Source: a virus
Direction: 5' to 3' (one strand)
Length of the DNA stretch: 23,304 nucleotides
IMG/VR virus record: IMGVR_UViG_3300042260_000165
Span: 1 to 23,304 of that record
Positions 4,800 to 23,015 of this stretch are shown piece after piece. The notes under the pieces were generated by a model that was not told where the DNA came from, searched no databases, and worked only from the letters and a program-made list of their open reading frames with translations. Each line of letters opens with the position of its first letter. Positions within the stretch are counted from its first letter, which is position 1. Position numbers and translations under genes: made by a program.

Positions 4800-6419
4800 T
4801 TAGAATGAACCTCCGGTGATTGGATTGCGCATAACAATCTTCAATACCTTGCTTGGGTCTTTTACCCAAATAGCAGGCATCATTTGTGTCATGAATACGC
4901 GGTATCCATTGAATTGACCAGAAGACTGGAATCCTTGAGTACGTCCCATGTAATCCATAGTTCCGTTTTGGTACCACCACTTCAATTGATTATCCCATCC
5001 CAACTTCAACATATAGATGTTATCGTTAGTGTTATCAGTGATATCAAAAATAATGAAGTTGTAAGAAGACAATGGGAAACCATCGATGATTGGGTTTTCA
5101 ATGTCGTTAGTATGCAAGTTATCGAACGCAGGGTTCAACACGAACTTAACGTTTGCCAAGAATGGGATAACGTAAGAAGTGTAAGCGAAACCGAAGTTCA
5201 AGTCCATACCTTTACCAGTGATTGCACCGATATCAGCAGCTTGGATCAACAAACCAGAGTTCATTGCCTCTTTCTTAATAGCTTCGTTAACCATGCGCAT
5301 ACCACCCATACCAGTTTGTACGATCAATTGACGCTTAGGATCTGGTCCTTGGAAGTCAACTTTACCAGCATAGAAGTTATAGATTTCAGAACGGAACAAA
5401 TCCAAAGTGAAACCAGACTTGTTGTATACGCGCTTGAAAGAGTTATCCAACTGCTTCCACAAACCGACAGACAAACGGATATCATCTGGACCGTCTTGAC
5501 GAACACGACCACCTTGTCCCCACATCAAGTAAGTCTCGATGTCAGATGCAACTTTGGTCAAGTGAGCTGCTTCCATAGCAGTCAAGAAAGTACGAGACAA
5601 TGAACCGTTACCCATTGCACGCTTAACATAATCCTTACCCATCTTAGATACCATAGTATCCATAGAAGTGATAGAAGGATCAGTAGTCTTATCAAAGTTT
5701 CTCCAGATCTCTACAACTGGAACAGTACCGTCAGCATTCATACCACCTTTGATCATCAAGTCAGCACGAGATGAAACAGAGTAATGAACGTGAGCTTCAG
5801 CACCACCTACGAAGTTGTAGTATTCACGGAAACCTGATTGAATTTGGATGTCAGAGAAACGCTCTCCGTACTCACCACGAGCAGAACCTTTACGGAACAA
5901 TTTGTCACCAGGTTGCAAGTATACAGAAGTATCCAAACCTGCTGAGCTATCATTGTTTACCAATTGTACGGTATAGATGAAACCATCACCTGTTGGGATG
6001 ATATCGTCTACAGTGATGTACATCTCAGAACCGTTGTACTTGTCATAAGTGATGATATCACCATGTCCAAATTCACGACGTGAAATCTTGATTTGGAAAG
6101 TAGTTCCATCAGCACCTACTGTGTTACCATCGGTCAAAACACCATCAACAACGTAAGGAAGATCTTGAACGACAGGAGTCTGCCATTTGTACTCTCCGCG
6201 AGCGTTATCTACTGTGATTACGTTCTTTCCACCGAAGCTAGACATTTGATACAAAGGCATTTCTACTTTCTGAACCATTGCCCACAAGTCAACTGGTCCT
6301 AGATCCATAGGTTCTGCATTTCTCAACATGTTAACCAAGTGGTAAGAATCTACGTGTGAACTAGCTTGGTAGTTGGTATCTCGTAGAAATATACCATTGT
6401 TTAAAACTGGAGTTGCCAT
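4800..6419 (-). CDS. Major capsid protein candidate
   Basis: The 539-residue product starts MATPVLNNGIFLRDTNYQ and fits an HK97-fold capsid protein in size, in its lack of membrane or enzymatic motifs, and above all in its place right after terminase, portal and a scaffold-like gene. Long mixed alpha/beta stretches include QIQSGFREYYNFVGGAEAHV, LTKVASDIETYLMWGQGG and MDLNFGFAYTSYVIPFLANV. The gene ends in its own strong terminator, as expected for a highly expressed structural gene. Codons are cleaner and more uniform than in the neighbouring small genes. No prohead protease is visible in the window, and no N-terminal delta domain is obvious. The assignment rests mainly on context; a crAss-like-type capsid protein is my best guess at family. 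Confidence 0.85.
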   Translation of the reverse strand: MATPVLNNGIFLRDTNYQASSHVDSYHLVNMLRNAEPMDLGPVDLWAMVQKVEMPLYQMSSFGGKNVITVDNARGEYKWQTPVVQDLPYVVDGVLTDGNTVGADGTTFQIKISRREFGHGDIITYDKYNGSEMYITVDDIIPTGDGFIYTVQLVNNDSSAGLDTSVYLQPGDKLFRKGSARGEYGERFSDIQIQSGFREYYNFVGGAEAHVHYSVSSRADLMIKGGMNADGTVPVVEIWRNFDKTTDPSITSMDTMVSKMGKDYVKRAMGNGSLSRTFLTAMEAAHLTKVASDIETYLMWGQGGRVRQDGPDDIRLSVGLWKQLDNSFKRVYNKSGFTLDLFRSEIYNFYAGKVDFQGPDPKRQLIVQTGMGGMRMVNEAIKKEAMNSGLLIQAADIGAITGKGMDLNFGFAYTSYVIPFLANVKFVLNPAFDNLHTNDIENPIIDGFPLSSYNFIIFDITDNTNDNIYMLKLGWDNQLKWWYQNGTMDYMGRTQGFQSSGQFNGYRVFMTQMMPAIWVKDPSKVLKIVMRNPITGGSF

Positions 6420-17106: not shown

Positions 17107-17421
17107 TCACTCGTCTTTCTTTGCTTTAATGTATCCTGTTAACTCAGCAAGACTAGTACTGATAGTGTTCATGTGCTGATTTAAAGTGTCAATTTTAACT
17201 GATAGTTTTTCATGATCAGCTTTCTGTTCATCTTTAATTTCTGACATACGCTTATAAATTACTGTTTCTTTATGCATTAACTGACTCTCGATTTCCATTG
17301 TTTTAGACGCTGCTTTTTCAATGTCTTTCTTTAATGCAAAGTACGCTCCTAATACGGATACAGCAAGCATTATAATACCTATAACATCCTTAGCTGTAAA
17401 CATTAAACTTTCTGCTTCCAT
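17107..17421 (-). CDS. Membrane-anchored coiled-coil protein, possible holin or lysis accessory
   Basis: This 104-residue protein has one hydrophobic segment near the N-terminus (VIGIIMLAVSVLGAYFALKK, about 13-32), then a long heptad-like helix (EIESQLMHKETVIYKRMSEI; HEKLSVKIDTLNQHMNTIST). A single TM helix followed by a coiled coil resembles XhlA-type lysis accessory proteins and small holin-like proteins of phages. No endolysin gene is next to it here, so a membrane or virion anchor is also possible. Its start overlaps the upstream stop by one base (TAATG), and it is the last gene before the terminator. Confidence 0.78.
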   Translation of the reverse strand: MEAESLMFTAKDVIGIIMLAVSVLGAYFALKKDIEKAASKTMEIESQLMHKETVIYKRMSEIKDEQKADHEKLSVKIDTLNQHMNTISTSLAELTGYIKAKKDE

Positions 17422-17861
17422 TATACAATTGGATAAAATCTCATTTCAAAGTATACTGTATTTCCTGTACTAGAACCAAAACCTCTAGGGTCTTCGGTTG
17501 AGGATACTGTATTAACAGATACAATTCTATTTTCATAAGGATCGTTAGTACTAACAAGATCAGAAGAAAATATGCATGTGGGATGAAGAGGAGAACTTAA
17601 TATAATACTTGTTTTTCTATCATCATAGATCCCTACATCTATAGATGGTATTGTAAATGCTGCAGATCCGGGTAGACCTTGAGAATCAATAGTAAGTGTT
17701 AGACCAGCATCGTTATAAGCTTCTGTGTATGTAATGGGATAGACACTACCATCATCCTCTTGAGTAAAGAAACCTTGAATAGATTTATAGGGGACCCCAG
17801 TTCCGATATTATCATAAATACCCTTTAATAGGGTAATTGCATTGCTTTCAAATGTACTCAT
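17421..17861 (-). CDS. Small appendage protein with repeated N-terminal helix
   Basis: This 146-residue protein begins MSTFESNAITLLKGIYDNIG, an N-terminal helix that closely matches the 22-residue mini-gene directly upstream (LLKGIYNKV there). The rest is beta-type, rich in Ser, Thr and Asp (VYPITYTEAYNDAGLTLTID; GNTVYFEMRFYPIV), and similar in style to the fibre genes. It overlaps the mini-gene by ATGA and the membrane gene by TAATG. A part of the receptor-binding apparatus is likely by context; no catalytic motif is seen. Confidence 0.78.
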   Translation of the reverse strand: MSTFESNAITLLKGIYDNIGTGVPYKSIQGFFTQEDDGSVYPITYTEAYNDAGLTLTIDSQGLPGSAAFTIPSIDVGIYDDRKTSIILSSPLHPTCIFSSDLVSTNDPYENRIVSVNTVSSTEDPRGFGSSTGNTVYFEMRFYPIV

Positions 17862-17926
17862 GCTTTTACCTTATTATATATTCCTTTTAGCAACTCAATC
17901 ATCTGTGCTTTAAATGCTTCGCTCAT
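17858..17926 (-). CDS. 22-residue mini-gene, copy of the next gene's N-terminus
   Basis: An ATG at 17926 opens a frame of 22 codons ending in TGA at 17860-17858, in an ATGA overlap with the next start. The product, starting MSEAFKAQMIELLKGIYNK, is an amphipathic helix. It aligns with residues 1-18 of the next protein (MSTFESNAITLLKGIYDN) through LLKGIY. A second mini-gene of the same length is at 19380-19448. The start lies 24 bases beyond the upstream stop. Confidence 0.55.
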   Translation of the reverse strand: MSEAFKAQMIELLKGIYNKVKA

Positions 17927-17950
17927 ACTATAATATACAAAAAACTAGAC

Positions 17951-18148
17951 TTACACGCAAAATAAATTGAATGCTGTATTAGGATCATCAGCAAGTAATT
18001 GAGCAAAGACTTCAATACCTTTCTCTTCTAGTTTTTGCACAAAAACACCATAGTTATCTGAATCATTAGGATCCCAAGCAAAGAATATGCTATCGTTTAC
18101 TACAATGGTGGGTAAATCCAAGTCGTTTTGAAATGTTCTATACGTCAT
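17951..18148 (-). CDS. 65-residue hypothetical protein in the fibre operon
   Basis: This short acidic protein starts MTYRTFQNDLDLPTIVVNDS and ends DDPNTAFNLFCV. It has a central aromatic and acidic stretch (IFFAWDPNDSDNYGVFVQKL) and a probable helix (EEKGIEVFAQLLA). The start overlaps the fibre-like gene's stop as ATGA, so it is translated with the fibre. It could be a fibre chaperone or small fibre subunit; there is no recognised family. Confidence 0.7.
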   Translation of the reverse strand: MTYRTFQNDLDLPTIVVNDSIFFAWDPNDSDNYGVFVQKLEEKGIEVFAQLLADDPNTAFNLFCV

Positions 18149-19383
18149 ATAACCATTTTAAAAGAAAGTCCATTAACAGCACCTCCAGTAGTTGTAGCAA
18201 GATTTTGCCTTCTCAATGCAAATTTATCACCTACTGCAAAACTTACTGAATTTGCTAAATTTGAATAAGGGGTTGTTGTTGGCGCACTACCAGCAGCAAT
18301 AGTTATTACTAACGCAGTATCTACCCCATTCTTCCTTACTGTAAATATTTGAGCGCCTGTTGCAGGTTGAGCCGTAGTGTAGTGCATAGTGTACATATCA
18401 CTTAAAGTACACGCTACAGGCATAATAAGAGTTGATGTTGATTCATTACTGCCTGCTGTAACACCTATACCTACCCAAGTTGTAGCGTTTGCCGCTGCTA
18501 CGTTTGCTAATTGAAAAGAAAATATTTGAGTTGTTGACCCAGCTGTGGGAGTTACATTACTCCATAATGATGTTGCGGAGTTATATGTAAGTACTTGACC
18601 ATTAGTAGGTGATGATATTGCTACATTGTGTAATTCATCTAACTCATATCCATTGTCTACCTTTACATAAATCTGACCTTGAGTGATATGCGCCCTAACA
18701 ACATAACCCATAATTACAGTATGTATTGGGGCTGTAGGTTTTATATTTGTTAACTGACCGGCAACTGTCCCTGATAAATAAAGCATATCACCGTCAGCCC
18801 AAGTCTCACTTTGTAATGATCCTGTAGTGTTTATTCCCCTAACTAATCCAGATGTGGTGATAAAACCTTCATCATTATCAATAATAGTTTCTGTAACAAT
18901 TCCTAAAGTTTCAGCAGAGTTCGGGTCATTGTTAGCTTGAGCTAAATCAACCTTTAATCTATTACCCTGCACTCCAGATATTCTTACAGCCTGATAGTTT
19001 GCTTCTAACAAATCAGAACCTGTCTTGTTAACAACTCTAGTTAAAAGCTCTTGACCAATTTGAAGGGTTACGTTCCCTCCCTTCATGCCTAAATCAACAG
19101 TTCCATCCTGGTCATTCCATCTCATTATAGCAACACCGGCAGTCCCTGTTGGGGTTTGATCAAATTCTACTTGACCTGCTTTTAACTCATATTCTCCAAG
19201 GTCTACGTTACCTGTAGCGCCTGTGTAAGGAACTTTAGCATTTAACGCATTCTGAAGATCTGTTTGACTTGATAGGGTACCAACGATCGACCCCCAGGTT
19301 GTTGATCCCGGGGGTGAACTTGTAATCAAATCGTAAATAGTTTGAAGCTTTGCTAGTACCTTTATGTCAAATCCTTGAATCAT
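18145..19383 (-). CDS. Tail fibre or receptor-binding protein
   Basis: This 412-residue fibre-like protein has an N-terminal helix (MIQGFDIKVLAKLQTIYDLI) matching the mini-gene upstream. Next comes a block common in metagenomic phage fibres: VPYTGATGNVDLGEYELKAG, then FDQTPTGTAGVAIMRWND and GGNVTLQIGQE. A linker with NGQVLTYNSATSLWSNV follows. The last 120 residues form a separate beta domain (TQIFSFQLANVAAANATTWV; VSFAVGDKFALRRQNL) that is likely the receptor-binding tip. Such proteins trimerise at the virion tip and bind host glycans. The gene overlaps the mini-gene before it and the 65-residue gene after it by ATGA, so synthesis is coupled. Confidence 0.85.
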   Translation of the reverse strand: MIQGFDIKVLAKLQTIYDLITSSPPGSTTWGSIVGTLSSQTDLQNALNAKVPYTGATGNVDLGEYELKAGQVEFDQTPTGTAGVAIMRWNDQDGTVDLGMKGGNVTLQIGQELLTRVVNKTGSDLLEANYQAVRISGVQGNRLKVDLAQANNDPNSAETLGIVTETIIDNDEGFITTSGLVRGINTTGSLQSETWADGDMLYLSGTVAGQLTNIKPTAPIHTVIMGYVVRAHITQGQIYVKVDNGYELDELHNVAISSPTNGQVLTYNSATSLWSNVTPTAGSTTQIFSFQLANVAAANATTWVGIGVTAGSNESTSTLIMPVACTLSDMYTMHYTTAQPATGAQIFTVRKNGVDTALVITIAAGSAPTTTPYSNLANSVSFAVGDKFALRRQNLATTTGGAVNGLSFKMVI

Positions 19384-19448
19384 GGTGTTAAAGCGTCAAT
19401 AATTTTATTGAGTAAATTTAGTACTTTTTGTTGAAAGTTTTGAATCAT
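19380..19448 (-). CDS. 22-residue mini-gene, copy of the fibre N-terminus
   Basis: An ATG at 19448 shares one base with the stop of the propeller-like gene (TAATG). The frame runs 22 codons to TGA at 19382-19380, overlapping the fibre ATG. The product begins MIQNFQQKVLNLLNKIIDAL and aligns with the fibre N-terminus (MIQGFDIKVLAKLQTIYDLI), sharing MIQ-F--KVL. It has the same length and overlap geometry as the mini-gene at 17858-17926. Coupling on both sides and the sequence match argue that it is real. Confidence 0.6.
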   Translation of the reverse strand: MIQNFQQKVLNLLNKIIDALTP

Positions 19449-21344: not shown

Positions 21345-22517
21345 TTAGTATGGTGCTAAGTCTCCGACTAAATAAAAAACAGTTGCTGATGACTTTATAA
21401 GTGTTACAAAACTTCCAACAGTTCTAGTATATGTCATACTATTTGCTGATGTTATTGACGCTCCTCCTGCAGCGACAAAAGATACAGATCCTCCTGTACC
21501 GCTATCCCAAACAAACATTGTTTGAGCACCTATTGCCATGCCAGATAAAGTCGTACCATTAACTGTAACTACAATATTTGTTGAAGCTCCTGTTTGACAC
21601 TTAACAAGTGTTCCTGCAGCAGTAGCTGCTACTATGAATGACGCATTCTCAGTACTACCCATATTAATAATAGCACCACCGTTTGCGCCAGCATATGATA
21701 AGTATTCGACAACAGGCGAACCACTTATTGATACTGTGCTAGAAGGATCAGTGTTATTATTTGTAAGTAATGTGTCTATTTTATATAGATGATATCCTGG
21801 AGTTGGTGCGGGAATCGTTGTAGTCCAACCATTTACAGTAACACCTGATACAGTCCATAATCCTGTTGCCCATGTATATGCTGCACTACCTGTGGGTAGA
21901 CTTGTTGATGGAGCTGTTCCACTATTAACCCACTTATATAATGTTAAGATAGCAGTTCTAAAACCATCAACACCTGGATTTCCTTCAACACCTAATTGAC
22001 CCCAAAAAGCATTACTTACTCCGGATGTGGGTGGCGCTGTAGCACCAGGTATAGTTTGATCATCTAAAGCAAACCATGTCTTGTACAAAGAAGGTGAACC
22101 TAAGTCTGTATAAACAACGTCATTTTGCAAATAATCACCAAGACCATCTGCAGGTGTTCCAGTTGTAAACTCACCCCTCCATCTTAAACCATTAGGAATG
22201 CTAATAGCGCTAATAGTAATAACACTATTTTCAGCTGGTGTAAAACTAGTAGATTTTATGGTGTTTTCTCCTTCACCAACCTGTTCCTGTAACTGAATAA
22301 AATTACCTGATTTTAGAGCAAATGATACACCACCTCCGCCACCACCAATAGCAGCTGCTAAGTCAGCAACGGTCATTGCGTAAGGTTGCCATTGATCCTG
22401 CTTCTTAAAAGTAGCTTTAGTTTGTGTTCCTAAGATGATGAGGTCATTGTTCTCATCACGTACTGTTTTCGATAGTCTTTTATTCGCTAAAAGATCTGAC
22501 CAGTTATTAATTTGCAT
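21345..22517 (-). CDS. Tail fibre or appendage protein
   Basis: This 390-residue protein has a compact N-terminal part (MQINNWSDLLANKRLSKTVR), a glycine run (AAIGGGGGGVSF, about residues 55-66) likely acting as a hinge, and a YLQNDVVYTDLGSPSLYKTW block with trailing WGQLG that resembles carbohydrate-binding modules of phage fibres. A short collagen-like GNPGVDG follows. The C-terminal 100 residues match a common fibre tip pattern (IVVTVNGTTLSGMAIGAQTM; VGSFVTLIKSSATVFYLVGD). The start follows the small proline-rich gene by 10 bases. It probably attaches to the tail and binds host surface glycans. Confidence 0.83.
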   Translation of the reverse strand: MQINNWSDLLANKRLSKTVRDENNDLIILGTQTKATFKKQDQWQPYAMTVADLAAAIGGGGGGVSFALKSGNFIQLQEQVGEGENTIKSTSFTPAENSVITISAISIPNGLRWRGEFTTGTPADGLGDYLQNDVVYTDLGSPSLYKTWFALDDQTIPGATAPPTSGVSNAFWGQLGVEGNPGVDGFRTAILTLYKWVNSGTAPSTSLPTGSAAYTWATGLWTVSGVTVNGWTTTIPAPTPGYHLYKIDTLLTNNNTDPSSTVSISGSPVVEYLSYAGANGGAIINMGSTENASFIVAATAAGTLVKCQTGASTNIVVTVNGTTLSGMAIGAQTMFVWDSGTGGSVSFVAAGGASITSANSMTYTRTVGSFVTLIKSSATVFYLVGDLAPY

Positions 22518-22983: not shown

Positions 22984-23015
22984 ATATATAATATACAAAA
23001 CTACAACGTATTATT

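Follow-up and report, generated by a model that had tools for sequence, protein, structure and literature searches.

The window analysed here is the whole of a 23.3-kb virus record, a fragment of a crAss-like phage with a fibre operon on its minus strand. Its MCP matches PF23898 Crass_capsid in Pfam (E 5e-32), its terminase belongs to phrog_6681 (E 6e-57) with 23-26% identity to crAss-like terminases, and its portal is P22-like according to Pfam; capsid together with terminase and portal place the window in the Crassvirales. Crassvirus tail ring proteins are found in the close relative G001 (PF24228 Ring_1, E 8e-11; PF25702 Ring_2, E 3e-17). Within the operon, two very short genes, mini-genes A and B (hereafter minis), each lie directly before a fibre gene (Table 1). 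Two frames of exactly 22 residues with an ATGA overlap had been predicted at this locus, and both are present: each has an ATG start, and its end overlaps the following gene, at 19383/19380 (mini A) and 17861/17858 (mini B).

Table 1. Features of the fibre operon (positions are those of the window)
Feature	Position	Strand	Description
Mini-gene A	19380..19448	-	22 aa, MIQNFQQKVLNLLNKIIDALTP; pN/pS 0.22 over 6 genomes; homologous to class C minis
Fibre A	18145..19383	-	412 aa; phrog_25379 tail protein, E 5.9e-7
Fibre A docking-helix codons	19321..19383	-	MIQGFDIKVLAKLQTIYDLIT; 21 residues align with mini A
65-aa gene between fibre A and mini B	17951..18148	-	exchanged independently of mini B; Mantel correlation of upstream gene with mini 0.26, not significant
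Conserved TTTTGTATATTATAG element	17928..17942	-	1 nt 5' of the mini B ATG; putative promoter or initiation signal
Mini-gene B	17858..17926	-	22 aa, MSEAFKAQMIELLKGIYNKVKA; pN/pS 0.29 over 6 genomes; types i-iii in 12 contigs
Fibre B	17421..17861	-	146 aa; helix 3-18 and beta-domain; AF2 mean pLDDT 90
Fibre B docking-helix codons	17802..17861	-	MSTFESNAITLLKGIYDNIG
104-aa membrane/coiled-coil (holin-like) gene	17107..17421	-	directly 3' of fibre B; census anchor gene

Fibre A consists of a proposed docking helix (residues 1-21), an SSPPG linker, a W-G-[ST]-I-x-GTLS-x-Q-x-DLQ neck and an exchangeable body. Its AF2 model is of low confidence (pLDDT 44), with a helix predicted at residues 7-22, and no relative was found among PDB sequences. 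For fibre B, the search of PDB folds with the confident AF2 model gave nothing below E 0.1, leaving its domain without a name. Neither fibre has a match in Pfam, including the crAss001 head fibre families PF11133 and PF25641. The core of the conserved element upstream of mini B, TTTTGTATATTATA, stands 2 nt before the ATG in all seven clade-I relatives checked, and it is likely a late promoter or initiation signal. The TTTTGTATATTATA element is also seen at 22986-23000 (minus strand) of the window, where it precedes the first fibre gene and its 15-base form has one mismatch; in clade II it precedes the holin-like gene.

The likeness of each mini to the N-terminus of the protein that follows, which was at the heart of the original prediction, was confirmed. 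Against the first 30 residues of the next gene, mini A scores 39 (order-shuffle p 1.5e-4) and mini B scores 44 (p 5e-5, the lowest value that the test can give), and each matches the immediately following gene better than the 25 other window genes tested. When the window's 14 small intergenic ORFs were screened blindly, minis A and B were the only matches, both to the next gene. The codons for LLKGIY in mini B and fibre B are mostly different synonymous ones, and this divergence between the DNA of the mini and that of the fibre start indicates that the paralogy is old and did not arise by a recent duplication of DNA. All four helices of the window have the spacing F-x3-[VMIA]-x3-L-x2-I-x3-[LVI], which, as read from alignments, is kept in all minis and in nearly all fibre N-termini (heads), type-iii heads having G for F. 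The claim that these are four copies of one helix is supported by this common spacing, while the direct link between mini A and mini B is weak (p 0.07), and it takes intermediates from relatives to make it convincing: mini A matches the mini of L030 with p 0.002 and the class C minis with p 2-4e-4. The ending LTP of mini A is also found in some class C minis.

In frame, pN/pS is 0.22 for mini A and 0.29 for type-i mini B over six relatives, against 0.77-7.6 in the other frames, and for fifteen class C minis it is 0.24 with a pS of 0.76, synonymous sites being near saturation. By this measure, minis A and B are real coding genes under purifying selection. The frames are kept in relatives with the synonymous bias that had been proposed as a check, and none of the minis examined there is interrupted; stops or lost start codons did not occur in close relatives. 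One close relative, L039, has neither of the two minis and neither fibre A nor fibre B, and several distant genomes are without minis. G006, G008 and G009 keep class C fibres and have no minis, indicating that the peptide is not indispensable everywhere.

The class C minis come from more distant crAss-like phages and comprise 20 distinct sequences of 34-37 aa in 24 contigs, with the consensus MxLGNNNYxxGxKKSNFxFQLKVLQLLQRILNAL. They copy the fibre N-terminus M.LGNGN..G.KGSNF..ELKVLQGL, the fibres of these phages beginning MSLGNGNPKEGDKGSNFNYELKVLQGLEAIA. The other ORFs with a class C head are 46-749 aa long (one of 46 aa, the rest of at least 83), with no intermediates below 46. A single class C mini is found per two fibres in L050, L116 and L118, and mini and fibres are separated by other genes in L050 and L176, which argues against a leader-ORF role. 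The shortest form is a 19-aa mini, MSKFQLMVLELLQKIKQAI, which precedes the orthologue of fibre A in G012. The carriers of minis are some aquatic crAss-like phages, and the minis span 19-37 codons. Minis A and B have no PHROG match, the class C mini has no relative in 50,697 phage records, and the class C peptides gave no match by tblastn against the phage collection and in a scan of genome contigs. Against PDB sequences, the class C mini and the class C fibre head found no virion protein and no relative, the tectiviral P31 family included. Stand-alone minis were screened for in the isolated phages crAss001, Cellulophaga phi14:2 and Flavobacterium Fpv3 and none was found, Fpv3 giving one chance match (a homing endonuclease), and no cultured member of the mini-carrying group was found in the collections searched.

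The co-variation of the mini with its neighbours was assessed by Mantel tests on identity in 11 close relatives of the clade of the window. Three helix types occur in these 11 genomes, each with its own mini type, and the mini correlates with the head (rho 0.85, p 7e-4); its correlations with fibre body (0.15) and upstream gene (0.26) are not significant. In L048 and L033, the bodies are 86% identical, the heads 17% and the minis 35%, and in L034 and L027 the corresponding values are 80, 20 and 26%. In L035 and L030, the upstream gene is 85% and the body 70% identical, with 40% for the mini and 36% for the head; at the DNA level, identity in this pair drops at the ATG of the mini and comes back after the helix, with conserved sequence flanking both sides. 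Identical heads and minis occur with bodies that are only 31% identical. Part of the mini-helix co-variation may be due to physical linkage, given that the two are neighbours. The mini/head type goes with TerL, portal, MCP and P356 (the portal-to-P356 comparison covers only 6-7 genomes, in which types coincide with sub-lineages), whereas H104, although adjacent, and PhoH do not follow it, which means that proximity alone is no explanation. When TerL is taken into account with the usual partial-correlation formula, applied to the rho values, the mini-head correlation stays near 0.7. The simplest reading suggested by these comparisons is a mini and helix matched to the virion, with exchange of the fibre bodies; this would place the peptide on the anchor side. 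The docking role proposed for the peptide is in this way partly supported, given that the mini copies the anchor helix, co-varies with it, and has a type that tracks the virion lineage.

Two further genes of the window were considered as a lead to the docking protein. P85 (16744-17001, minus strand), which is small, acidic and helical, has an identity of 0.80 within a mini/helix type and 0.45 between types, and P128 (16006-16392, minus strand) has 0.72 within and 0.43 between, while some of their neighbours have no sharp difference between types. This lead, the co-variation of mini B with both genes, was rejected given that TerL, portal, MCP and P273 co-vary too, which indicates lineage and not a partner; P85 and P128 are possibly docking partners or only lineage markers.

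The class C minis and the fibre heads fall in separate clades (support 0.996), with fixed mini/head differences at positions 20 (Q/E), 29 (R/small) and 31 ([LY]/[ACI]). A few minis are fibre-like, and that of L243 has E20. In 26 of 28 pairs, the mini is more basic than the fibre head from the same genome, the mean difference being about four charges, and these pairs are related and not independent; in class A, the charge difference between mini and helix is small (mean +1.2). The fixed differences and the more basic charge make it unlikely that class C minis are spares that could be exchanged for the fibre helix. The original prediction had the same peptide made alone or fused to a fibre; fixed differences and charge favour a mini in a neighbouring, non-equivalent position, for example with basic helices beside acidic ones.

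This bears on the idea, also part of the original prediction, that the free peptide is a plug or decoy that sits alone at the site of the fibre helix and caps empty docking sites or limits fibre loading. A plug would be expected to have the register and length of the helix, to stop at the start of the linker and to co-vary with the helix, as the minis do, but the fixed differences at 20, 29 and 31 run along the whole helix and, with the more basic charge, point to a non-equivalent position, and this explanation is rather unlikely. The peptide could instead be an assembly factor that pairs with the fibre helix in folding or trimerisation and is absent from the virion, as the ATGA translational coupling to the fibre in clade I and the heterotypic charge pattern might suggest. 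However, other genes can stand between class C minis and fibres (L050, L176), and the co-segregation with the portal/MCP lineage points to a virion platform, leaving a role confined to assembly distinctly improbable.

A cationic amphipathic lysis peptide of the disruptin-like kind would account for the type ii and iii B minis, which are amphipathic, have a holin-like gene nearby and carry charges of +3 to +5. The minis nonetheless resemble the N-termini of fibres specifically, a resemblance that extends to the non-membrane LGN..G.K.SN arm, and class A minis have a charge of 0 to +2 and precede a fibre and not a holin, so that lysis is a very unlikely function. There is equally little to be said for a leader ORF or recombination scar, that is, a truncated 5' copy that serves translational coupling or fibre exchange with no function of the peptide itself. 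The minis do lie mostly just 5' of a fibre with the ATGA overlap, but such a copy is contradicted by the selection data (pN/pS of 0.22-0.29, and class C synonymous sites near saturation). The divergence of mini and fibre-start DNA, the separate clade of the class C minis and the minis that are not adjacent to a fibre also speak against it.

The best reading, to which a probability slightly above even is given, is that the mini would be a docking-helix microprotein that lies beside the fibre helices at an attachment site of the virion and fills positions without a fibre. The minis would then be structural microproteins and base-only paralogues of the fibre docking helix. The fibre anchor would be formed by the ~20 N-terminal residues, or 35 in class C, as an amphipathic helix that in some cases follows a Gly/Asn-rich arm, and the mini would be the same helix, ending where the fibre enters its linker. 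Mini and fibre helices may stand side by side in one docking assembly, for which the head hexon pocket and the tail-collar hub are candidate sites. Basic minis would pack against neutral or acidic fibre helices, and the mini would occupy helix positions left empty by the oligomeric fibre, or cap sites without a fibre. We infer the presence in virions, the hetero-oligomer and the identity of the docking site, and the last of these is a guess, given that no credible match to the crAss001 tail hub A (PF25724) or auxiliary capsid protein (PF25650) was found in 13 records, in which divergence may hide homologues.

In crAss001, fibres are attached by N-terminal anchors, with residues 1-38 of gp21 (a trimer) and 1-58 of gp29 (a dimer), the head fibres, in head hexon pockets, and residues 1-26 of the tail fibre gp22 in the A2B tail hub (PMC10172136). 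This phage belongs to the same order and likewise anchors its fibres by the N-terminus, but no sequence likeness was seen in the N-termini, and no free-standing anchor peptide was found in it. A parallel in function is given by the tectiviruses PRD1 and PR772, where P31 is a short, base-only paralogue of the N-terminal anchor of the spike protein P5. The penton base of PR772 is built of three P5 and two P31, P31 being similar to the P5 N-terminus, and this hetero-oligomer resolves a symmetry mismatch (PMC6750898). As in that system, a free protein homologous to the fibre anchor is found here in the same genome, and the mini would work like P31/P5 by analogy, not by homology. P31 is a folded domain of 126 residues from an unrelated, membrane-containing virus, whereas the mini is one helix of 19-37 aa with no homology to it, and its hetero-oligomer is putative. 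The trimeric fibre of adenovirus is docked by a short N-terminal tail on a penton base of different symmetry (PMC6750898). The likeness lies in the short N-terminal peptide that docks at a base of other symmetry. No separate peptide is known to occupy the unused grooves of the adenovirus penton base.

More broadly, and with a probability somewhat short of even, these sequences may represent an undescribed family of virion microproteins (19-37 aa) that join fibres in mixed docking bundles on the virions of crAss-like phages and resolve a symmetry mismatch, one peptide partner serving several interchangeable fibres. If true, few structural proteins known from tailed phages would be as small as the minis, and one of the most abundant phage groups would gain a class of tiny structural genes that lack annotation. 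The minis would explain how one anchor carries many swapped fibres and offer a testable answer to how multimeric fibres are fitted on sites of other symmetry. They would also be a warning that gene callers drop real structural genes of 20 codons.

Other candidate anchors were observed in the same group of phages. A further class, MDILNWLYL..K......D[LI]..LGADVS..KRGDKYQ.YAM, stands at the start of several fibre genes in each genome (L122, L130, L203, L204), and the MQINNWSDLL gene of the window (21345-22517) looks like a diverged member of it; for this class, no free mini was seen. Two adjacent genes on the minus strand of L207 (G001:C1:5209-5643 and 5661-6143) have the common N-terminus M[SA]FIDIFN[YF]KKYF.KSSD.QVAR.GHVNALYDALS, a candidate shared anchor domain. 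Finally, one body, assigned to phrog_1645 (virion structural protein), is common to L077:4820-6178 and L048:4242-5486; it carries a SIGNLKD..GNNFPWQLKMLQGL anchor in one of the two phages and another N-terminus in the second, indicating shuffling of heads and bodies.
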